Origin: Flavobacterium sp. HJ-32-4
Lineage (GTDB): Bacteria; Bacteroidota; Bacteroidia; Flavobacteriales; Flavobacteriaceae
Length of the DNA stretch: 64,000 nucleotides
Assembly (NCBI RefSeq): GCF_022532105.1
Contig: NZ_CP092832.1
Span: 1,054,001-1,118,000 of the forward strand
Direction of reading: 5' to 3'
The notes under the pieces were generated by a model that had not been told where the DNA came from, did not search any database, and was given only the letters and a program-made list of their open reading frames with translations. The position numbers and the translations under genes are program-made. Below are positions 18,811 to 30,227 of this stretch, in pieces. Each line of letters starts with the position of its first letter. Positions within the stretch are counted from its first letter, which is position 1.

Positions 18811-19190
18811 GCTTTCATACCCGAGGACTCCTTTACTCAGCTACTCATGGACTTAGGGACTCCTTCCCAAAAAAACCTTCACGCTCTCCCCTGGATAAAG
18901 ATGTACTCGTTCCCCGTCCGTTGGGAGTAATGATGGGTATTGCCCTGCCTCAAGATGTAAGTGTCTATAATGTAAACACGCTATAAACACGCTATAAACA
19001 CGACATATATACGACATATATACGACATATATACGACATAAATATTCTATAAAAGGGTAGATGACCCGTCCTGAGCATCCTTTATCCCCTGTTTTCCCCA
19101 GTTCATCGTGCCGTTTTTTTACCCAGCGGATTTCATCAATACATCTGTAGCACCCGCTCCGATTTGATCTCATTTATTCTTTATTTACGC
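18811..19190. other. Intergenic region without a supported gene
   Basis: Between the PepSY gene and the RHS cassette terminator, apart from the 11-bp tandem array, I see no gene. The only open frame (minus strand, 18853-19173) translates the tandem repeats into a low-complexity Tyr/Cys/Ile-rich peptide with no recognisable domain, so it is not called. The two flanking operons converge on this stretch. Confidence 0.6.
18974..19050. repeat. Seven 11-bp tandem units
   Basis: Units of exactly 11 bp run without interruption: AAACACGCTAT twice, AAACACGACAT, ATATACGACAT three times, AAATATTCTAT. The A/T steps recur once per helical turn, so the DNA may be curved or present a protein-binding face. 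No spacers, so this is not a CRISPR array. Confidence 0.8.
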
Positions 19191-19224
19191 ATTTAAAAAT
19201 AAGAAACCAGCCTGGGGGCTGGTT
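19191..19224 (-). terminator. Terminator of the RHS cassette
   Basis: AACCAGCC (19205-19212) pairs with GGCTGGTT (19217-19224) around a 4-nt loop. On the minus strand it is followed by TTTCTTATTTTT. It lies about 90 bp after the stop of the candidate immunity gene. Confidence 0.7.
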
Positions 19225-19312
19225 CTGTTTTTGAGATATGAATATGGTCAGAGCCTGTATTTGTTGAGTTGGGCGACATTGTTTGGTAAATCAACACATC
19301 TGGTATATTACC

Positions 19313-19606
19313 TTACAAATCTATCATTTCCTGTACATACTCTTCGGTGTAATGCTCTTTTAAATCGGCTCCACAAAAAGGGCAGTAACTGATCACCATT
19401 TTTTTGACGCCTTCTTCTTCGATTGAGTTATTGTACCCGGCAGATATAATGTATCCAATGTTTTTCTTTTCAGGATCGATGAGCTTAATCCGCTCATGGA
19501 AAGACTTACTATATTTCACTACTCTAAAATTCAGTCCAAATGAATTTTGTGATCGGTAGAAAAACCCCATCGGAGGGCAACAAGATTCTAAATTTGATTT
19601 GTTCAT
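19313..19606 (-). CDS. Small zinc-ribbon protein, candidate immunity protein
   Basis: This 97-residue protein is encoded 9 bp downstream of the RHS gene on the same strand. It has no signal peptide. A Cys pair at residues 9-10 (ESCCPPMGFFY) and C75/C78 in ISYCPFCGADLKE could bind one zinc ion; the layout resembles small DUF6980-type proteins. Position directly after the variable tip of an RHS protein is where cognate immunity genes of polymorphic toxins sit, so a cytoplasmic immunity role is the leading guess. It lacks similarity I can name with confidence, and the region is visibly more A/T-rich than the neighbouring operons. Confidence 0.62.
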   Translation of the reverse strand: MNKSNLESCCPPMGFFYRSQNSFGLNFRVVKYSKSFHERIKLIDPEKKNIGYIISAGYNNSIEEEGVKKMVISYCPFCGADLKEHYTEEYVQEMIDL

Positions 19607-19615
19607 ATTAAAGGT

Positions 19616-22600
19616 TTAAGGACCGGGAGTTGCTAGTCCATTTAAAGTTTCTACTAAATCCTTACCAATAAATTGATATTCAGTCGAAATTGTGGTTTGA
19701 CCCGAGTGGATACCAGCATTTTTCAATAATTGTTGACTAGCTTCTAGACTTCTTAACCCCGACGTACTTATCTGATACTGCATGACCTGACCTCCATTTT
19801 TTACGTACGACGCCGCCACTTCAGCGTTGTCTGTAAGGAACAAAGAAGTGCTTCCCATTTCACTTCCGGTAGAACCTCGATAAAGAGTTACCATAGGGTC
19901 AAATTCATTCATAGGAGCCAAAACAGCCGCATATTTGTTAGTTGTTGCCACCGTGGTAGTAACTTCTTCACCTACGCTAGCCGCCCGACTAAGGCCTATG
20001 AGAACTCGTGCCCCTGAAAAAACTTCACCAATAACATATTCGGCTGTCAGCGCCGCCATACCATGCGCGGCACCCTCCATAACACGTGATTGGGTGGCCG
20101 GATGCCCTATGTTGTCGTGATTATTCATGGCATCATTTAGCCGAGCCAGGTCTTCTCGTGCCTGTATGTTAGCTTGTCTCCACGAATCCCTTTGCTCCCG
20201 CGGCCTGTTATCTGCCGACAAAGTAGCTCCGTGTTGTGGGGGCGTTGTCCTCGGTGCAGGCTTAGGAGTTACCGTCATCGAACGACTCAGGTCAAATTGA
20301 CGTTTATTATTGGGTATATTATCCCTTACCACTGTTCTCGCGTCGTCTGAGAGTATACGTTTTTGCCGATCTTTTACATTCTCCAATCCTTCAACATCTT
20401 GTGCATGTACAGGTTGGTTAGACGCAAATTGATACGTACTGTAATCTTCATATTCCTGTGCCAAAGGATCAATGCACATAAATCTTCCGATTGCCGGATC
20501 ATAATTTCTCCATTTGAATGCATACCAACCGAGGCCAAGTTCATCCTGCAACTCCTGCCCCTGGTATTTATACTGATACCCCAACCGCGTCACCGGGGCC
20601 AACACAATCACATTTCCGCCTGAATCATCCCTGTCGTAATCAACTTTGGTGACGTTGTAGTTTTCATGTTTCAGGCCAAAGGGATAGTAGTTGTTTTCCT
20701 CCATAATGGCCAATGCCTGCGAGCTTTTGTCCCACGTGTAGCTCAGGCGGTTGTTACCGAGATGGTCCGTATAGTTGTACACATAGTTGAACTCTCCCTG
20801 CGTATGTTTTACGTAACCTTCGGGTGTGGTGAAAAATGATAACTCTCCATCCTGGTATTGGAAACCGTCGAGGTAGTCGGTTTTGGTAGTGGTGGAAGCG
20901 TTGCTGTCAAAGACCGTTTTCTGCAGCTTTGTACCACTGCCATCGTAAAGATACGAAATAACACCACCGTTATCGAAAGTTATCGTTACGGGAAGATTCA
21001 TATGATTGTACGTAATATCGGTAATACCTTTATTGGCATCGGAGGTCATATTGCCATTCAGGTCAAAGGCGTATTCCACCGGATTATGCGCCCCATCCTT
21101 GAAGCCATTGCTAAAACCGGTGTAGTCCTCCACGGCCATTATCCGGTTGGTGTCGGGCCGGTAAATATACATCAGGTCATCGATGGTCAATGACAGTTGG
21201 TCATCGGCATCGCGGTATCCGTTGCGGTAGAGTGAGAGGATGTTGCCGTTACGATCATACGCCAATTTTTCGTTGTAAGCGTTCGTTACCGGGCTTGTAC
21301 TATTATCAGGACGTATATACACAGCCCTGCGCAATCGGTTCATTTCATCGTAAAAATACCCGTATTCCCTTAATACGTTGTCGCTGGCCGAGCGCCAGTA
21401 GGTTTCCGATATATTGCCATTATAGAGCGTCTTTTGGCTGTAATCGGTTCCATAATTGGTACCCAACTGATCGTAGTTGATATGGAAAGAAAACAGGTCG
21501 TTACCCAGGCTGGCTATATCGTTGATGTCCGTCATCCAACCGCGGATGTTGTATTGGTAGTCGACGGTTTGGTAGGGCACGCCGTTAAAACTGTTTCCTC
21601 CTACCTGTTTCCTCAACAATTGCCCCAGCGCATCGTAGTGGTTTTCCGAGAGCGTTTCCGTTGGCATTGACTCAATTGTGTGGGTATGGCGGAACGGGCG
21701 CTCCTGGGCGGTGTAGGTGATCGTATCAACAATGGTCAGCGTGGGGTCATTGGCGTCCCTCTGGTGGACGGTGATGGTGTAGTCGGGTTTCCCGGTAAAA
21801 TCAAGTTTGCTGGATACTGTTTGCACACCTCCGAGGAAGTTTGTGGCCTGGGTACGGACCACGCGGCCTTTGGTATCATAGAAGGTCGTGACGTCATGTC
21901 CATCCTGTTGTGCGGTGTTTTCCAAAACACGGTTCCAGATATGGGTAGCGAGTCCGCGTACGTTGATGGCCACTGTTTGTGTTTCCACAGTTGTAGGGGC
22001 CGTTGCTGCATTCGGATAATCGTAGTCGTCATAATGCTGCAGTGTCAACACTTCCATTGATGTTGGCGCGCTGAAGGAGGTGTAACCCTGTACGGTGCCA
22101 TATCGATCCCTTGTTTCAAATAACGGGGTATTGCTGCGCTGGTTGCCAATGCCAACCCGGGCGTGCGGCCAGTCCGTCAGTGTTTCGAGTAACCACCCCG
22201 TATAGACTACCCGTCCAAATGGGTCGTATTTGGTGATGAGCCATCCGTCGTTGCCATGACCGAATGGGTCCAACGCAGGCCCTGAGGCAATTACGCGGTC
22301 CAGCTTATCATAGGCCATGTATTCCCATTGTTTGGCCGGTAGTTTTTTGGCCACCATTCGGTTACGATGGTCGTACGCGTATTGATATCCAAACCCTTCC
22401 ATCTTATTAGCAGTCAGGTTCTCTGCGGCCATAGGCGGTATTACGTAACTTAGATTGCCGAACTGGTCATACACATAATAGGTGTCATGTTCTTTGTTGA
22501 CGGCATCAAATTTTGACTTACCCCATACGCGTTTCAGAACCACGCGGCCTTCCTTATCTTTGAATTCCACGGTGGCGCCATCATGTTCAGCGGGATTGGC

Positions 22601-25600
22601 GCTCGAGTTCTCGTCATAGGTTATGTTTTTGTAAAGTTGGCCTTCGGCATAGAAACCATTATCTGTCATCGTAGGTTCGTAATACTCTTTTGTGTTCGAC
22701 CATACCGCGTTTGCCGAGAACCACCTGACTTCGTTCACGGCGTTTGTCCGGTAATCCAACTTTACCTCATGTCCGCTGCCCAAGGCCCAGGCATCGCCGG
22801 GAGCGGCCTGTTTGACTACGCGGTTCAGCGGTGAGGCTTCGAATTGTTTTTGGCTGTAAGCCGGTGTTCCGGCTCCATACAGGGTTTGATAAAAACCGTT
22901 CGGGTTTGTCGTTAAGTCGTCTAAAGCTACGAACGCCTGGTTATTCTGTGTCGTGGGCACCGGCAACCACTCTTTATCCTGACGGCCAAAACCGTCATAG
23001 GTGATGGGCGTAATAAGGTCCTTCCCGTCTCCGGTCATACGTCCCGCCACCTGTTCAAGGGGCCTGCCCAGCCCGTCAAGATAGGTAACGTTTATCTGGG
23101 CCTCTTCGGCGGTTGGGTTGGAAAGGGACGTCGTGGTCGCCATCTTATAGGTTTTGGTTTTGACCCAATTGGTGAGCCCATAATGGTATTCGTTTTCGGA
23201 AAGGATGTTCCCGGCATCGTCCTTCACCTGCGACAATCTTCCGAATCCGTCGTAGAAGTACTTTGTGGTATATCCTCTTTGATCGGTTATCGCACTAACG
23301 CCGATTCCTGGCTTATAGGTAAACGTTGTGACCATGGCATCCACCATTGACGCGTCGGCCCTTAGTGCGGCCAATGCCGCGCCCATCGTGGATGGCGTTG
23401 CGTTATGTATGGCCGCAATTAGACTGGACGGAATGCTTTGATAAGCCATATTGTCGATTTTGGCAACCGGAACGGAATTGCCGTAGCCATAAATATAGGA
23501 GACCTTCATGCCATCCGTCTGTTGGACTTCCAGGATATTGCCAAAAGCGTCATACCGGTTGTAGAGCAGTCGTGTTTCGTAGGACAACGGAACTCCCTTT
23601 GACGTCCACACCGTCTTAGGAAGCCAGGCAACATTGTTGGCGAACGTATTATCATAATCCAATTTCGTTGCCGACAGCAGCGTTTGGTCAGGATTCAACA
23701 CAGTCCCTTCATATTGGTAAATACGTTCTATATCACCAATCCGGTTATAGCTGTATGGTGTTGAGGACGGGAGGCTGTAATAAAACTTCATCAGCTTGAC
23801 GCGGTTGCCGTCGCTCGTGGCTTTACGCCACCATGCCAGTTTTTTATTCGAATTATTAAAAGAGAAGGCTTCCTCTTTTTCTACTACACTTGGGTTACCC
23901 ACCGCGTCGTAAAAATAGTCTTTGGTTATCTTTGATTTGAGCCGGGCCCAGCCCACGACCTCATAAACCAAGCCATAAGAGATATAACTCAGCGGAGTTC
24001 CGCAAACATATTCGCAATTTATGCCGTTCGTCGCACAGTTTTGTGACCACCCCCAATAGAGATCATGATCACCCGCGAAATGAGAGCCTCCGCAGTTATT
24101 GAGGGAAAATACTTTTAGTCCCGTTTGCAGTTGTTCCTCGGTACGTTCGTAGTCATATATTACTTCCTGCTTCAATTTGTCGGACTGGTCGAACACCGCT
24201 TGTTTCTTTACGTTGCCTCGTTTATAGTCGAGATTTGGAGAAGCGTGAAACGGATACGTCACACTGTAAAATGGTTCAGGGAAATCAATAGGCGAGAAAT
24301 AAGTAAATTCCGTCTTTCCGTTGCCGAACTCGCTTACTGTCACGTTTTGGTATCCTACATCCGAGCCTTTTGTTCTCAGGAAATCCAAATAATTATGCTC
24401 TTGCCACATTTTAAGTCCAAAGCTATAATAATAGGTGCGCGGAATCCAACCATCATGACACTGCAGCGTATAATTCTTGGTTATCAGATACTCAAAAACC
24501 GGCACAGGAAACACCAAAGAACCGCTACTGGAATTAGCTGTGTCGAAAAATGAATAGTCATAATTTAGCTGCTTCGCCGGCGTGAACTCACTATTCCCGA
24601 TGCTGGAATCGAAATAGTCGGCTTCGACATTTTTGTCAGTAAAATAGCCCACATTGGCGATCCTGACGCCTCCCCCAAGGAGGTATTGTTTCTGGCTAGC
24701 GGCCTTTGACGTCGTACGGATTGAGACGTTAGCCGTGAAATTCAGTCCCAATCCGGCTACGCGAACGGCATATACTGTATTAGCCTGTAATGTGCCCGGG
24801 TTACTTCCTACGGCAGTATAAGTCTGGTCTGGATTTTTCCTGTAAAATCCGATCGCGCCCTGATCAGAACCTGATTCCACTGAAATACTACGGATGTACC
24901 TGGTGCTGGCCGCAGCGGGAATGAACCCCCACTTACCGTTATTGGCGGGGACGGTTGAATCAGTAGTTTGGAGGGTGAAAACAATCGGCTGATAAATGAC
25001 CCAATTCTCAGGGTTTTGATCATAATCTTCGCTTGCTATCGGCTGGTCTCCGATGTAGGAATAGGTATTGGACTCAAAATTAAACACGGTTGCGCCTCCT
25101 GTAGGATATGTGAGTTTCTGGATTACATCCACTTTACACATTCTGGGATCTGTTGCACGAGGCTTAAAACCATTTTGAGAATTGTCTAACGTGTAGTAAC
25201 CCCATTTATCGATTTTAATGTCGAGGTTGGAATATGGGGGCTGTACATAACTGATCTCCCATGTATGGGTTTCGGTATCGACATAGTTGCTTCCCTCCAA
25301 TTTAACCAACATCATACGTGAGTTGTTGTCAATTTCGGAATAGTCGTGGAACAGACGGAATTTCTGTATTCCTGTTCCATATTGGTCTTTAATTTCGATG
25401 TCCTTTAATCGATATGCTCCGTCATTATTGGTGTCGTAGCGGTTTCCATCCAATGTAAAATGAATCAATGCATAATCGACAACATTGATATCGGTGATTT
25501 TTTGTGTTGCTGTCGAAGTAAAGGTTGCGATATCCGTTCGCACGGGTTGTATCTGTTTGTAAAATGCATCGGTTATCATACCACAATCATCCATAACCAT

Positions 25601-26578
25601 TGCCCCAACTTCAAACGCCGTATAGGCCGGATCTACATACTCCGCAAACTCCGATTTTACACGCTTCTGCGTTTCGGTATATTGACCAAAAGTATATTCT
25701 ATTAGAAGGTTACCATTGGGGTCAAAGACCTTTGATAGATGAAAACTGCTGTTATAGTCGTAGTGATCAAGTTCTTGAGGAAAATTATCCTCTATTGAGC
25801 TGTTTATATTTCCGGCGTATATGTATCGGGCCAACATGCTTACTGTTGTAATCTCCCTGACGTCAAAAACGAATTTGTACCCTTTATCATCAAATAAAGT
25901 AAACGTTTTTGTCGCGTCATCGTAATCAATACGGATTGAATTGTCATCATCTAACTTCTTTATTTCGAAAGAGCCGCTTTCTTTCGTGATGTAGAAACGC
26001 CCCGAATGTCCGAAGAAGTTGAATTGATAAAGGTCATGCTCAGTATCGTTGTAACCTTTTTCGTAGGTATCCCATACGTATTCTGAGAAATCTTTCATTT
26101 GAGCGGTGTTCATTGTAGTACCAATTAGCGCATTTGCCTCATAGTAACTAAGCTTTGGAGCGATGGACATGTGAATGCCGAGTTTTCGAGGTATCGTCGC
26201 AGACCCGATTCTGTATCGATCATCAGGCATGTCCCGGACGGTTCTTGAAATGGTTCCACCACCATCAAGGTTCCATCCCAGTCCGCAATAAGCCGCGATT
26301 TCTTCGGCGGCGATGCTGCCTGGATGATACTTTAACGCAAGATTTAGTTCTAGGTCTTTACCGTGTGTCTGTACCTTGTAAAGAGGAATTGAAATATCTG
26401 GAACGCCTGTATAGTTATTGACCGGAACTTCTTCGAACTTCATGAGTGCCGCCACCGTCGGAGATGGCTTGATGATATTCGGCATTTCGGTTTTTATTTC
26501 TTCTGGTGTCTGTGAAAAAACCCCATTAGTGCAAAAAGTAAGCGCACTAATTATTACTAAAAAAAAATACCTTTTCAT
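19616..26578 (-). CDS. RHS/YD-repeat protein with variable C-terminal tip, probable polymorphic toxin
   Basis: This is a 2320-residue exported protein with a signal peptide (residues 1-23, ending GVFSQ). The N-terminal part has the block typical of Bacteroidetes RHS proteins (YHPGSIAAEEIAAYCGLGWN). Many YD repeats follow, such as YIYGYGNSVP, YFYDGFGRLSQVKDD and YDHRNRM. The RHS core lies at about residues 1990-2070 (YTDHLGNNRLSY, NNYYPFGL, RNYDPAIGRFMCIDPLAQEY). After the core comes about 250 residues unlike the rest: a Pro-rich linker, a hydrophobic stretch and a tip with LYRG (Y2233, R2234), STS (2243-2245) and TEYQF (E2300), which fits an ADP-ribosyltransferase-like R-S-E arrangement. That toxin reading is tentative. 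The gene lies 12 bp behind a Por-secreted protein gene and 9 bp before a candidate immunity gene. There is no Por signal of its own. Confidence 0.88.
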   Translation of the reverse strand: MKRYFFLVIISALTFCTNGVFSQTPEEIKTEMPNIIKPSPTVAALMKFEEVPVNNYTGVPDISIPLYKVQTHGKDLELNLALKYHPGSIAAEEIAAYCGLGWNLDGGGTISRTVRDMPDDRYRIGSATIPRKLGIHMSIAPKLSYYEANALIGTTMNTAQMKDFSEYVWDTYEKGYNDTEHDLYQFNFFGHSGRFYITKESGSFEIKKLDDDNSIRIDYDDATKTFTLFDDKGYKFVFDVREITTVSMLARYIYAGNINSSIEDNFPQELDHYDYNSSFHLSKVFDPNGNLLIEYTFGQYTETQKRVKSEFAEYVDPAYTAFEVGAMVMDDCGMITDAFYKQIQPVRTDIATFTSTATQKITDINVVDYALIHFTLDGNRYDTNNDGAYRLKDIEIKDQYGTGIQKFRLFHDYSEIDNNSRMMLVKLEGSNYVDTETHTWEISYVQPPYSNLDIKIDKWGYYTLDNSQNGFKPRATDPRMCKVDVIQKLTYPTGGATVFNFESNTYSYIGDQPIASEDYDQNPENWVIYQPIVFTLQTTDSTVPANNGKWGFIPAAASTRYIRSISVESGSDQGAIGFYRKNPDQTYTAVGSNPGTLQANTVYAVRVAGLGLNFTANVSIRTTSKAASQKQYLLGGGVRIANVGYFTDKNVEADYFDSSIGNSEFTPAKQLNYDYSFFDTANSSSGSLVFPVPVFEYLITKNYTLQCHDGWIPRTYYYSFGLKMWQEHNYLDFLRTKGSDVGYQNVTVSEFGNGKTEFTYFSPIDFPEPFYSVTYPFHASPNLDYKRGNVKKQAVFDQSDKLKQEVIYDYERTEEQLQTGLKVFSLNNCGGSHFAGDHDLYWGWSQNCATNGINCEYVCGTPLSYISYGLVYEVVGWARLKSKITKDYFYDAVGNPSVVEKEEAFSFNNSNKKLAWWRKATSDGNRVKLMKFYYSLPSSTPYSYNRIGDIERIYQYEGTVLNPDQTLLSATKLDYDNTFANNVAWLPKTVWTSKGVPLSYETRLLYNRYDAFGNILEVQQTDGMKVSYIYGYGNSVPVAKIDNMAYQSIPSSLIAAIHNATPSTMGAALAALRADASMVDAMVTTFTYKPGIGVSAITDQRGYTTKYFYDGFGRLSQVKDDAGNILSENEYHYGLTNWVKTKTYKMATTTSLSNPTAEEAQINVTYLDGLGRPLEQVAGRMTGDGKDLITPITYDGFGRQDKEWLPVPTTQNNQAFVALDDLTTNPNGFYQTLYGAGTPAYSQKQFEASPLNRVVKQAAPGDAWALGSGHEVKLDYRTNAVNEVRWFSANAVWSNTKEYYEPTMTDNGFYAEGQLYKNITYDENSSANPAEHDGATVEFKDKEGRVVLKRVWGKSKFDAVNKEHDTYYVYDQFGNLSYVIPPMAAENLTANKMEGFGYQYAYDHRNRMVAKKLPAKQWEYMAYDKLDRVIASGPALDPFGHGNDGWLITKYDPFGRVVYTGWLLETLTDWPHARVGIGNQRSNTPLFETRDRYGTVQGYTSFSAPTSMEVLTLQHYDDYDYPNAATAPTTVETQTVAINVRGLATHIWNRVLENTAQQDGHDVTTFYDTKGRVVRTQATNFLGGVQTVSSKLDFTGKPDYTITVHQRDANDPTLTIVDTITYTAQERPFRHTHTIESMPTETLSENHYDALGQLLRKQVGGNSFNGVPYQTVDYQYNIRGWMTDINDIASLGNDLFSFHINYDQLGTNYGTDYSQKTLYNGNISETYWRSASDNVLREYGYFYDEMNRLRRAVYIRPDNSTSPVTNAYNEKLAYDRNGNILSLYRNGYRDADDQLSLTIDDLMYIYRPDTNRIMAVEDYTGFSNGFKDGAHNPVEYAFDLNGNMTSDANKGITDITYNHMNLPVTITFDNGGVISYLYDGSGTKLQKTVFDSNASTTTKTDYLDGFQYQDGELSFFTTPEGYVKHTQGEFNYVYNYTDHLGNNRLSYTWDKSSQALAIMEENNYYPFGLKHENYNVTKVDYDRDDSGGNVIVLAPVTRLGYQYKYQGQELQDELGLGWYAFKWRNYDPAIGRFMCIDPLAQEYEDYSTYQFASNQPVHAQDVEGLENVKDRQKRILSDDARTVVRDNIPNNKRQFDLSRSMTVTPKPAPRTTPPQHGATLSADNRPREQRDSWRQANIQAREDLARLNDAMNNHDNIGHPATQSRVMEGAAHGMAALTAEYVIGEVFSGARVLIGLSRAASVGEEVTTTVATTNKYAAVLAPMNEFDPMVTLYRGSTGSEMGSTSLFLTDNAEVAASYVKNGGQVMQYQISTSGLRSLEASQQLLKNAGIHSGQTTISTEYQFIGKDLVETLNGLATPGP

Positions 26579-26590
26579 ATCCTTGGTTTA

Positions 26591-28645
26591 TCAGATTCCT
26601 TTAATCACTTTCAAACTCCCCTCCCCTTTATCCGTCACCACCGAAATGATGTACACCCCTTCTGGGTAGGCGGCGAGGTTCACCGGCACGGTTCGTCCGG
26701 TGATGGGGAAGGTCTGTAGTTGGTGGCCGCCGAGGTCATAAACCGAGAGGCTGCCTTTGGTGAAGTCGAAACCGACGATCACGTTGGTGTATTCCACCAC
26801 CGGGTTGGGGAAGGCTTCTATGGTTTTCTTGTCTTTGACTTTTTTGTCTTTGTCTTTGAGTTTTACCACCCAGAAATCGCGGTTGCCGTAGTTGGCTTTT
26901 TTATCGCGACTTTGCTTGGCGCCGGGCTTTATTCCAGTCGCAGTCTCAGTCGCAGTCGCAGGGTTGGAGCGTGAGGAAGTCGCAGTCTCAGTGTTGGGGC
27001 TTGAAGACAGTGCCGTAGAAGGGGCGAGTCGCCCGCCGAGTTTGAGTCCGCCTAGGTTTTTTTCTTTGTTGAGGCCGAGGCCGTCGGTTTGGTCTTTGAT
27101 GAAGTCGTTGGCCTGGGTTTGGGCATCATTTACCGTGCTGTCCATTTCATTCTGCAGGCGGTCGGCACCGGCCAGGTTGCCGTCGTTGCCGACGGTTACG
27201 CCTCCTTTACTGGCTTTTCCCTTTCGTGACGACTGCGACTGAGACTGCGACTGCGACTTCTCCGGGTCACTCGTTCCGGCCAGTACATATCCGCCATCCC
27301 TTGTCTCAATGGCTTTTTTGAGGATGTCTTCGCCGTCGCTACCTACGCTTTTGCGCCAAAGTTCTTCACCCTTCGCATCAATCTTTATGGCCACGTAATC
27401 GCCGGTGTCACTTTCGGACTTCCCGTCTTTTGGACTTCCCAACTCTGCTTTCGCGTATGCTCCTAATACCAGCGTTTCATCGTCGTTCTCTACGATACTA
27501 GCCAGCAAGTCGGCGTTACCGATGTCGTAGGTCTGCTGCCAGAGAATGTTGCAGGTGGTGTCGAGTTTGAGCAGCCAGATGTCGCTGCCTTTTCGGTTGG
27601 TTTGGCTTTTGTTGCCCGAAGGGCCTGAGGCGGAACTGCCGCCTACAAGGTAATTGCCGTCTTTCAATTGGATAGCCGAAAAGAGTTGTTCGTCTTTGTC
27701 ACCGCCGAGGGTGTTTTGCCATTCGATGTTGCCGTCGGCATCGAGTTTGAGGATCCAGTAGTCGCCGCCGGTGCCCCAAGGGTCTTGGTTCTTGTCGGGT
27801 TTGCTTCGGCTAGCGCCTCGCAAGGACGACACTCCGTTTGACGCACTTTCTGCGGAGGCGCCTCGCAAGGACGCGTTGCTGTCTGAGGGGCTGTTGGAGT
27901 AGCCGGCGAGCAGGTAGCCGCCATCGGAGGTTACTTCAAGGGCGCGGAGGAGGTCGGCGTATTTGCCGCCGAAGGTACGCTGCCACTGGATGTGTCCGTC
28001 TTTGTCGAGCTTGACGATCCAGTAGTCCATATTGCCGCGGCTGTTTTCGGTTTTGTCGCCATTGGCATCGGAAGCCGAGGAACCACCGGCAATGTAGCCC
28101 CCGTCTCGGGTAGGAAGCACGGCCAAAAGGTCATCTTGCCCGATACCGCCTAGGGTCACCTGCCACTCTTCTACCCCTTTGGCGTTGAGCTTGATGATCC
28201 AGTAGTCGTTGCCGCCGCGGCAGGCGTCTTTCTTATCGCCATCGGGTTGTTCCAACGCACTGCTTCCCGACTGCCTACTGCTACTGCCCACTGCCGACTT
28301 CTGCGACTGTCCACTATCCGACGTCCCTCCCAAGATAAACCCGCCGTCGCGCGTGTTACGGATGCTCATGAGAAAGTCGGAGCCGCTGCCCCCGAACGAT
28401 TTCTGCCAGTCTTCGGCACCGTGTTCGTCCATTTTCCAGATCCAGAAGTCGAGGTCGCCTTTGGCGTCGGCCTGTTTGTTGCCGCTTTTCTGCGACAGGG
28501 AACTGCCTGCGACGATGAATCCGTAGTCGGCCGTGGGTTGGAGATCAAACAGGTATTCGGCCTGTCGACCGCCGAAGGAGTGTTCCCATTGGATGTCCTG
28601 GGCGGAGAGGGTGAGGGGAAGAAGGAGAAGGAGGAGGTGTTTCAT
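26591..28645 (-). CDS. Por-secreted repeat protein (T9SS type A sorting domain)
   Basis: This 684-residue protein starts with a signal peptide (MKHLLLLLLPLTLSAQ). It then has six to seven repeats of about 55-80 residues, each with DGGYILAG-type and GGNDYWIIKL-type blocks, like the propeller-like repeats in many Bacteroidetes surface proteins. It ends in a type A sorting domain (FPNPVVEYTNVIVGFDFTKG, VYDLGGHQLQ, EGVYIISVVTDKG). It is the first gene of the RHS cassette, so a surface partner or carrier for the RHS protein is possible. Linkers between repeats are unusual: SQSQSQSQ, ATATETATG and two SLRGAS stretches are encoded by genome-type micro-repeats. The start at 28645 is fixed by the signal peptide. 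Confidence 0.88.
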   Translation of the reverse strand: MKHLLLLLLPLTLSAQDIQWEHSFGGRQAEYLFDLQPTADYGFIVAGSSLSQKSGNKQADAKGDLDFWIWKMDEHGAEDWQKSFGGSGSDFLMSIRNTRDGGFILGGTSDSGQSQKSAVGSSSRQSGSSALEQPDGDKKDACRGGNDYWIIKLNAKGVEEWQVTLGGIGQDDLLAVLPTRDGGYIAGGSSASDANGDKTENSRGNMDYWIVKLDKDGHIQWQRTFGGKYADLLRALEVTSDGGYLLAGYSNSPSDSNASLRGASAESASNGVSSLRGASRSKPDKNQDPWGTGGDYWILKLDADGNIEWQNTLGGDKDEQLFSAIQLKDGNYLVGGSSASGPSGNKSQTNRKGSDIWLLKLDTTCNILWQQTYDIGNADLLASIVENDDETLVLGAYAKAELGSPKDGKSESDTGDYVAIKIDAKGEELWRKSVGSDGEDILKKAIETRDGGYVLAGTSDPEKSQSQSQSQSSRKGKASKGGVTVGNDGNLAGADRLQNEMDSTVNDAQTQANDFIKDQTDGLGLNKEKNLGGLKLGGRLAPSTALSSSPNTETATSSRSNPATATETATGIKPGAKQSRDKKANYGNRDFWVVKLKDKDKKVKDKKTIEAFPNPVVEYTNVIVGFDFTKGSLSVYDLGGHQLQTFPITGRTVPVNLAAYPEGVYIISVVTDKGEGSLKVIKGI
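26936..26995. repeat. CAGTCG/CAGTCT hexamer micro-repeat inside a coding linker
   Basis: The plus strand reads units of CAGTCG and CAGTCT (for example CAGTCGCAGTCTCAGTCG). On the minus strand it encodes the Thr/Ala/Ser-rich linker around residues 550-570 of the Por-secreted protein, between its last repeat and the final GNRDFWVVKL block. Confidence 0.7.
27232..27262. repeat. Hexamer micro-repeat encoding SQSQSQSQ linker
   Basis: The plus strand reads GACTGCGACTGAGACTGCG and onward, the reverse complement of the CAGTCG/CAGTCT units. It encodes the SQSQSQSQ segment at about residues 461-471 of the Por-secreted protein, between two repeat domains. Confidence 0.7.
27813..27873. repeat. Two copies of a GCGCCTCGCAAGGACG element in a coding linker
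   Basis: The exact 16-mer GCGCCTCGCAAGGACG occurs at 27813-27828 and 27858-27873, 45 bp apart. It encodes two SLRGAS segments in one linker (about residues 257-278). The core CCTTGCGAGG with a nearby GAAGCAAAC resembles a dispersed genome repeat of the form TTGCGAGG...GAAGCAATC that I recall from many bacterial genomes; that likeness is from memory. Confidence 0.55.
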
Positions 28646-29183: not shown

Positions 29184-30227
29184 CTATCCTGCATAGTCCT
29201 GCTCCTTTGGTGCGGGACTATCTTTTTTATATCCTTCAATGAATACGGTATCGTTCTTCCATAAAGTATACATCAGCAGGAGGAGTTTTCGCTGTATGGC
29301 CACCTGACCTATCATCTTCGAGGGTTTATTTTGGTTGATTCTAAGATAGGTTTGCTTCATATCGGGATTGAAACGACAGGCCACCATTGCAGGGAAGTAG
29401 AGGGCATTCCTTATGTATCGGTTTCCTTTTTTGGATATGCGTGTTTTACCTTTTATGGATGTACCCGACTCCCGTTGTACAACATCGTAACCGGCAAAGC
29501 TTGCAAGTTGCCTTGCGTTTCGTATCTGGTAGAAACCATCAGTTTCAGCGATGATCGTGGCTATTGTAATCAACCCTACGCCTTTTATGGTGTTTATTTT
29601 GTTTACCTTGTCCTGAAGACCTGCGTCTGAGGCTATCTGTTTCTCGATTGCTTTTTTGACTACTTGGATCTGTTTGTCAATCTCCTTTATGAGCTTTTGG
29701 TTGCTTCTGAAGATAAACTGCTGAACCTCAAAAGAATTTTCCTTACTGTGTTTTATGTTGCCTAAGGCCGTTCGCTGTTCCTGCAACTGGACATAATAGC
29801 GAGTAAGGTTACGGAGTCCACGGAGCACTGGGCTGGGAGGAACCCATGTCCTATGTTTGCGTTCCACCCCAAACTGGCTCAAGACTTTAGCATCCAGATG
29901 ATCGGTTTTGGTCTTTACGTTCAAACTTGAGAAGTAATGGCTCGATATATTGGGCAACACCACATGAACCGTCTTTTTGATCTTGTAGAGATGATAGGCA
30001 AGCGCCTCATAATAGACACCTGTCGCCTCCATAAGAAAGACTAGCTCAGATTCGGGAGTACTTACGCTTCTTACCCAGCGAGTAAACTGATTGAAGCCCG
30101 TTTTGTCATTAGAAAAATCAACTGATTTGCTGAACACCAGAGCACCCTTGCTATCCTGTTGGCAATGACACGCGGTGAAGGTTGATTTTGAGATGTCGAT
30201 TCCGACCGATTGTTTTACGATAGACAT
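29184..30227 (-). CDS. IS110-family transposase (DEDD recombinase)
   Basis: This 347-residue protein has the two domains of IS110-family enzymes. The N-terminal RuvC-like DEDD domain shows D11 (VGIDISKST), E67 (FLMEATGVYYEAL), and D109 and D112 (KTDHLDAKVL). The C-terminal Transposase_20 domain begins near INTIKGVGLITIATI and contains the Ser-bearing block QRESGTSIKGKTRISKKGN. It appears full length with no frameshift, so the element may still be active. It lies between the RHS cassette and an unrelated YwqK-type gene. Members of this family insert without terminal inverted repeats and are guided by a structured RNA from the element's noncoding end. Confidence 0.95.
   Translation of the reverse strand: MSIVKQSVGIDISKSTFTACHCQQDSKGALVFSKSVDFSNDKTGFNQFTRWVRSVSTPESELVFLMEATGVYYEALAYHLYKIKKTVHVVLPNISSHYFSSLNVKTKTDHLDAKVLSQFGVERKHRTWVPPSPVLRGLRNLTRYYVQLQEQRTALGNIKHSKENSFEVQQFIFRSNQKLIKEIDKQIQVVKKAIEKQIASDAGLQDKVNKINTIKGVGLITIATIIAETDGFYQIRNARQLASFAGYDVVQRESGTSIKGKTRISKKGNRYIRNALYFPAMVACRFNPDMKQTYLRINQNKPSKMIGQVAIQRKLLLLMYTLWKNDTVFIEGYKKDSPAPKEQDYAG

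Follow-up and report, generated by a model that had tools for sequence, protein, structure and literature searches.

The RHS toxins TreTu (Salmonella Rhs1), RhsP2 (P. aeruginosa), and Tne5 (Pluralibacter) are effectors of the type VI secretion system (T6SS), each with an RHS core, a C-terminal tip of the ADP-ribosyltransferase (ART) fold, and an immunity gene located directly downstream. In the Tc toxins, the RHS shell is formed from two polypeptides, TcB and TcC, which are either separate or fused, and TccC3 also carries an ART tip. Further background is found in passages of PMC13285283, PMC11699363, and PMC11833690, and the cassette-exchange model of polymorphic toxins is set out in a part of PMC3482391. 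In Apibacter, a relative within the Flavobacteria, the majority of the rhs genes adjoin genes for type A sorting-domain proteins, and a link to the type IX secretion system (T9SS) is suggested in a passage of PMC8125069. A similar case for the T9SS is made in a passage of PMC7073777 for the TANFOR toxins of Bacteroidota, most of which have a signal peptide and which are encoded near T9SS substrates, with an immunity gene downstream. Here we compare with these systems a three-gene locus found in a 64,000-nucleotide stretch (hereafter the window; NZ_CP092832.1, positions 1,054,001 to 1,118,000) of the genome of Flavobacterium sp. HJ-32-4, which consists of a single contig of 3,533,442 bases. The locus comprises a gene for a Por-sorted protein (the Por gene, 26591..28645), an RHS polymorphic toxin gene (19616..26578), and a candidate immunity gene (19313..19606). 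According to the list of open reading frames (ORFs) of the window, all three are on the minus strand, as are the other features of the locus given below, and are separated by only 12 and 9 bp. Taken as a whole, together with the roles proposed below for the tip, the immunity protein, and the Por protein, the trio is probably best explained as one operon encoding an RHS polymorphic toxin directed at other bacteria.

The RHS gene encodes a 2320-aa protein with an N-terminal signal peptide (by eye). An N-half (residues 1 to ~1130; 23189..26578), for which most relatives have a gene of its own, is fused in one ORF to the core half, which starts with a DUF6443 domain (residues 1140-1278; 22745..23161; PF20041, E=3.9e-41). 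The constant part ends with the RHS-associated core (residues 1999-2065; 20384..20584; TIGR03696, 49.7 bits, cut-off 32.5), close to residue 2070, where a preliminary description made from the sequence alone had placed its end, and is followed by a variable tip (residues 2066-2320; 19619..20383). The presumed two-part shell resembles that of TcB-TcC; unlike the Tc toxin, however, the window protein contains no SpvB or TcdB domain detectable by a Pfam scan and is linked to a small gene downstream, although both domains are present in one related locus (L024, see below). It differs from the TANFOR toxins in its RHS/DUF6443 N-terminal region, in which no NCBIfam match to TANFOR was seen (the presence of this model in the library is unconfirmed), and in a partner without a SprB repeat match in Pfam and NCBIfam scans, and from the Apibacter proteins in its DUF6443 domain, its fused N-half, and a propeller-like partner. 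It also differs from TreTu, RhsP2, and Tne5 in its signal peptide and in a tip without a credible family match. RHS effectors are common T6SS cargo (see also passages of PMC13285283 and PMC8125069), but T6SS delivery is very improbable here, as the protein begins, judged by eye, with a signal peptide for Sec export and lacks a PAAR match in Pfam and NCBIfam scans, and TssC/VipB, the only T6SS component searched for, was not found in the genome.

The same genome contains a paralogous Por-RHS locus (L014:2622-15936; G000:C1:293000-312900) with a different main tip. It consists of a Por gene (C1:308953-311016), whose product is 92% identical to the window Por protein, followed after 11 bp by a gene for a 2403-aa RHS protein, a 220-aa gene, and three orphan RHS-core-plus-tip pieces (628, 291, and 387 aa), which are followed by small genes. 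Compared in blocks of 100 residues, the two RHS proteins share 20-43% identity up to residue 1000 and 65-85% identity at residues 1001-2000; the similarity is lost from about residue 2041, and the tips are unrelated. Similarity resumes where the immunity gene ends and continues beyond it, in a conserved 3' flank of ~200 bp (19132..19330), including the terminator described below, with 75% identity between the two loci. The core and the 3' flank are thus conserved around a tip and an immunity gene that differ, which is the anatomy of cassette exchange. As judged from these alignments, a constant carrier with an exchangeable C-terminal tip, the hallmark of RHS polymorphic toxins, is present here, in line with the preliminary assignment to this class. 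By eye, His/Asp motifs like those of M15 peptidases are seen in the main tip of the paralogue, for which Pfam gives no match, and one of the orphan tips is M91-like (Peptidase_M91, E = 3.7e-4, below cut-off). The immunity genes of these two tips begin as lipoproteins (by eye), and the location of the immunity protein may follow the compartment of the target.

The small gene downstream of the window tip encodes a 97-aa protein with invariant CC and CPFCG motifs. By eye, this protein has no signal peptide, which would fit an NAD enzyme of the cytosol as its target. A pattern scan of contigs from 84,980 species yielded 109 stretches, eight of which encode a tip relative. In all eight, the CC...CPFCG gene lies directly downstream, with gaps of -2 to 6 bp (in L024, the start was placed at the second ATG; from the first, the overlap with the toxin gene would be longer), so that, with the window, tip and small gene are adjacent in nine of nine loci on differing RHS carriers. 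The same tip occurs on DUF6443-type RHS genes (L020, L022, and L025), on short core-tip pieces (L021, at a contig end, L023, and L026), and on SpvB/TcdB and SpvB carriers, respectively, in a Bacteroidia metagenome-assembled genome (MAG; L024) and a Bacteroidales MAG (L027); the last two loci indicate that the tip-immunity pair crosses carrier classes. Orphan tip-immunity cassettes are found both in the paralogous locus (three) and, for the window tip type, in L023 and L026. Among 299 genomes of the family, the tip was found in two and the small gene in the same two only, adjacent in both. Order-level profile searches detected the tip in one of 386 genomes (its own) and the small protein in two (its own and a weak, stop-containing match in G614).

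Pairwise distances among the tips correlate with those among the small proteins (r = 0.84, reached in 2 of 20,000 permutations; 0.865 and 27 of 20,000 when L027 is left out), and the small protein diverges faster than the tip in most pairs. No homologous locus was encountered in which the small gene is absent or unlinked to the tip type. These data indicate that the small gene is likely the cognate immunity gene, as the preliminary description had proposed, and that the locus is very probably a toxin-immunity cassette. If the targets were instead eukaryotes, such as algal or animal hosts, and the small gene had another role, a parallel would exist in the RHS/SpvB/TcdB carriers with ART tips, which include insecticidal toxins such as TccC3. 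This is improbable, since antibacterial cassettes are usually marked by just such a paired, co-diverging downstream gene, seen here at nine of nine loci, and the other cassettes of the paralogue are likewise followed by small genes, of which two encode lipoproteins by eye. The CPFCG-containing segment aligns with DUF6980 (PF22400), which matches seven of nine members of the small-protein family at E up to 0.1; the best score, 20.8 bits, differs from that of a family member in lying below the curated cut-off of 27. A profile search with the small protein gave chance-level matches only, and its predicted structure is too weak to interpret.

The tip has no similarity to that of the paralogue, and neither Pfam nor NCBIfam gives it a credible match. 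Among solved structures, its sequence found nothing credible (best E 0.6) and its profile no match at all, PADLOC reported nothing for it, and a Foldseek search against the Protein Data Bank (PDB) returned no significant match. The tip and immunity proteins are thus families not represented above cut-off in Pfam and NCBIfam. The tip includes a moderately hydrophobic stretch at ~2170-2205 (hydropathy) and, from an alignment and the predicted fold, an ART-like domain at residues 2227-2320 (19619..19900). The predicted fold is ART-like in a comparison with chosen PDB families including TccC3, which does not exclude other PDB families, and no non-toxin fold appeared. Judging from this model, the tip very likely has the ADP-ribosyltransferase fold.

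In an alignment of nine relatives, R2234, T2249, D2250, Y2258, H2291, and E2300 are invariant. The LYRG, STS, and TEYQF motifs singled out in the preliminary description are all found in the tip, as are CC and CPFC in the small protein. L, R, and G of LYRG and E of TEYQF are invariant and the Y position is occupied by Y or F, whereas STS is not conserved at its last position (S,S,V,S,S,T,S,T,P), T2249 being the invariant residue of that strand. STS was therefore rejected as a catalytic motif, and of the earlier proposal of an ART-like toxin, the fold was supported and this motif was not. The tip does not conform to the R-S-E clade, in that R2234 and E2300 are invariant but STS is variable, nor to the H-Y-E (PARP-like) clade, as the first-strand position is Arg in nine of nine sequences with Y2258 and E2300 kept. 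It is possible, if rather less than evenly probable, that the tip is ART-shaped but represents another kind of protein, such as a KptA-like RNA 2'-phosphotransferase, an NAD phosphorylase/NADase of the RES type, or a binding domain without activity. All of these fall within the ART fold group, which puts the reaction and not the fold in question, and the invariance of E2300 and Y2258 in nine of nine sequences, as in the transferring members, argues against this alternative.

The Por protein (684 aa) comprises a signal peptide (by eye), repeat units, a low-complexity linker, and a C-terminal T9SS type A sorting domain (residues 612-682; 26600..26812). As the preliminary description had claimed, this domain is of type A, scoring 33.3 bits with TIGR04183 (cut-off 23); the Pfam sorting-domain model falls just under its cut-off (26.4 vs 27). 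The repeated 'D.W..K.D..G...W' units are beta-propeller-like. The SBBP beta-propeller model NF047494 gives 40.8 bits, far under its cut-off of 400, and the Por relative in L160 also matches PQQ_2/BamB below cut-off. SprA, the only T9SS component searched for, was found in the genome (2810 bits), and with its sorting domain the Por protein is a predicted type A T9SS substrate. The RHS protein has no sorting domain of its own (no TIGR04183 or Por_Secre_tail match at E up to 1). An upstream Por partner of an RHS toxin had been regarded as an unusual arrangement, for which the passages on Apibacter (PMC8125069) and TANFOR (PMC7073777) now provide precedents.

Nine close Por homologues (E below 1e-100) were found: seven accompany RHS genes, one (L107) does not, and one (L108) lies at a contig end, which gives an RHS neighbour in seven of the eight assessable cases. 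On these sequence comparisons, the link between the Por protein and RHS genes is real, and we give slightly less than an even chance to an action of the partner in RHS display or delivery, as had been proposed. A similar chance, again slightly below even, falls to the Por protein being an independent surface protein (an adhesin or a receptor binder) that shares the operon and has no part in RHS export or display. Several observations weigh in favour of such independence: 100 of the 106 DUF6443 RHS loci surveyed below have no Por gene, none of 15 loci with distant Por homologues has an RHS gene nearby, the close homologue in L107 also stands alone, and unrelated secreted proteins (lipocalin-like or DFTL-type) fill the same operon slot. 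Against it stand the retention of Por with RHS in the seven close homologues, the position of Por between RHS half-genes in L110, L160, and L182, and the unrelated sorting-domain protein that in L027 (Bacteroidales) directly precedes an RHS gene with the same tip. A specific form of the display or delivery role, in which the sorting signal is supplied in trans, with the Por-tailed partner binding the RHS shell in the periplasm and taking or holding it through the T9SS, is unlikely. If it were true, RHS toxins without their own sorting domain would reach the surface as a complex, and the L027 protein would represent a second, independent solution of the same kind. An outer-membrane route via the T9SS for RHS toxins of Bacteroidota with a signal peptide and no sorting domain is put forward only as a hypothesis in the relevant passages of PMC7073777 and PMC8125069, and a compact test case is offered by the present genome, in which the same carrier pair occurs twice with tips that differ and the T9SS-sorted partner is a dedicated one.

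The L027 protein (L027:2501-2995; 165 aa), encoded directly before the RHS toxin gene, contains a sorting domain (E = 1.3e-13) and a YD-repeat-like motif below cut-off (Pfam, E = 0.027), and its signal peptide was recognised by eye. It is an independent hint of T9SS involvement.

In the survey, DUF6443 was detected in 51 of the 299 family genomes at E up to 1e-10. Of 115 places listed, 106 distinct ORFs were examined, and those at G130:C14:5953, G096:C5, G156:C11, G195:C3, G297:C33, G096:C3, G069:C3, G177:C4, and G072:C7 were left out. An RHS N-half gene lies directly upstream of 65 ORFs, 18 show the order N-half - X - core, four are fused N-half and core genes (two in the genome of the window), 10 have no same-strand gene within 120 bp, eight are of other types, and one is cut off. 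The X position is filled by a lipocalin-like protein (PF13648 scores over cut-off in L128 and below it in L170, and does not match in L158), a secreted protein of 131-138 aa, or, in three loci, a Por protein. Por genes occur in six loci, i.e. between the halves in L110, L160, and L182, before the N-half in one, and before the fused gene in two, suggesting that the two-part RHS shell can do without the Por protein, which would be an optional accessory and not a general requirement. Sorting-domain partners as a general feature of DUF6443 RHS loci were rejected: TIGR04183 matched six of 67 scanned proteins, the 67 comprising 65 of 67 operon neighbours (two were dropped as RHS fragments by eye) plus the window Por protein and the L027 protein as known positives. 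The TIGR04183 result is a number without names, and five Por proteins and the L027 protein were flagged by our own profile or by Pfam. The sorting-domain and Por profiles were built from few sequences, which remote members may escape, and the lipocalin-like, DFTL-like, and coiled-coil labels are regular-expression classes that undercount. The term 'DUF6443' was not found in the literature searched, and beyond the searches made we do not claim the two-gene layout as unpublished.

Small secreted proteins (lipocalin-like or DFTL-type of 131-138 aa) are encoded between N-half and core genes in L115, L116, L122, L124, L128-L130, L141, L143, L146, L148, L157-L159, L170, L209, and L211; they are possible shell plugs or chaperones. 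In nine loci (L119, L121, L126, L127, L137, L138, L166, L197, and L200), a regular expression picks out proteins whose C-terminal segment (IPSA...KIEELTLY) resembles a coiled coil; they are encoded in the run of genes upstream of the N-half or core genes.

Sequence comparison establishes four elements: a constant RHS carrier, an exchangeable tip, a paired small gene, and a Por partner that stays with the carrier in the paralogous copy with its different tip. Self-cleavage of the core is a feature of RHS biochemistry. In the mechanism that we propose, the RHS protein, exported by Sec as one chain of N-half and core, would form a shell around the tip and cleave itself near residue 2065. The tip would act as an ADP-ribosyltransferase-fold enzyme that consumes NAD+ in the cytosol of the target, either modifying a macromolecule or hydrolysing NAD. 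In the producer, the 97-aa protein, presumably cytosolic and probably folded round a four-cysteine zinc site, would bind and block the tip. The Por protein would be exported by the T9SS to the cell surface, where it would most likely hold or present the RHS toxin as an accessory subunit.

The three genes, their spacing, and the terminator were all confirmed at the positions given in the preliminary description. The terminator-like hairpin, followed by a T-run (19204..19225), was detected by a scan that is weak by itself (20 sites on both strands of the region vs 12.4 +/- 3.6 in shuffles), and the paralogous locus has it as well, in its homologous 3' flank. The G+C content is 36% in the 97-aa gene, 47% in the tip, and 51% in the window, and the low value of the small gene would fit import. 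Short tandem repeats with units of 11 and 22 bp (18973-19044) follow closely downstream of the operon, inside a spurious-looking 106-aa ORF (18853-19173). Upstream, an IS110-family transposase gene (29184-30227) lies on the same strand ~540 bp from the Por gene, and this transposase could have aided the movement or duplication of the Por-RHS locus.
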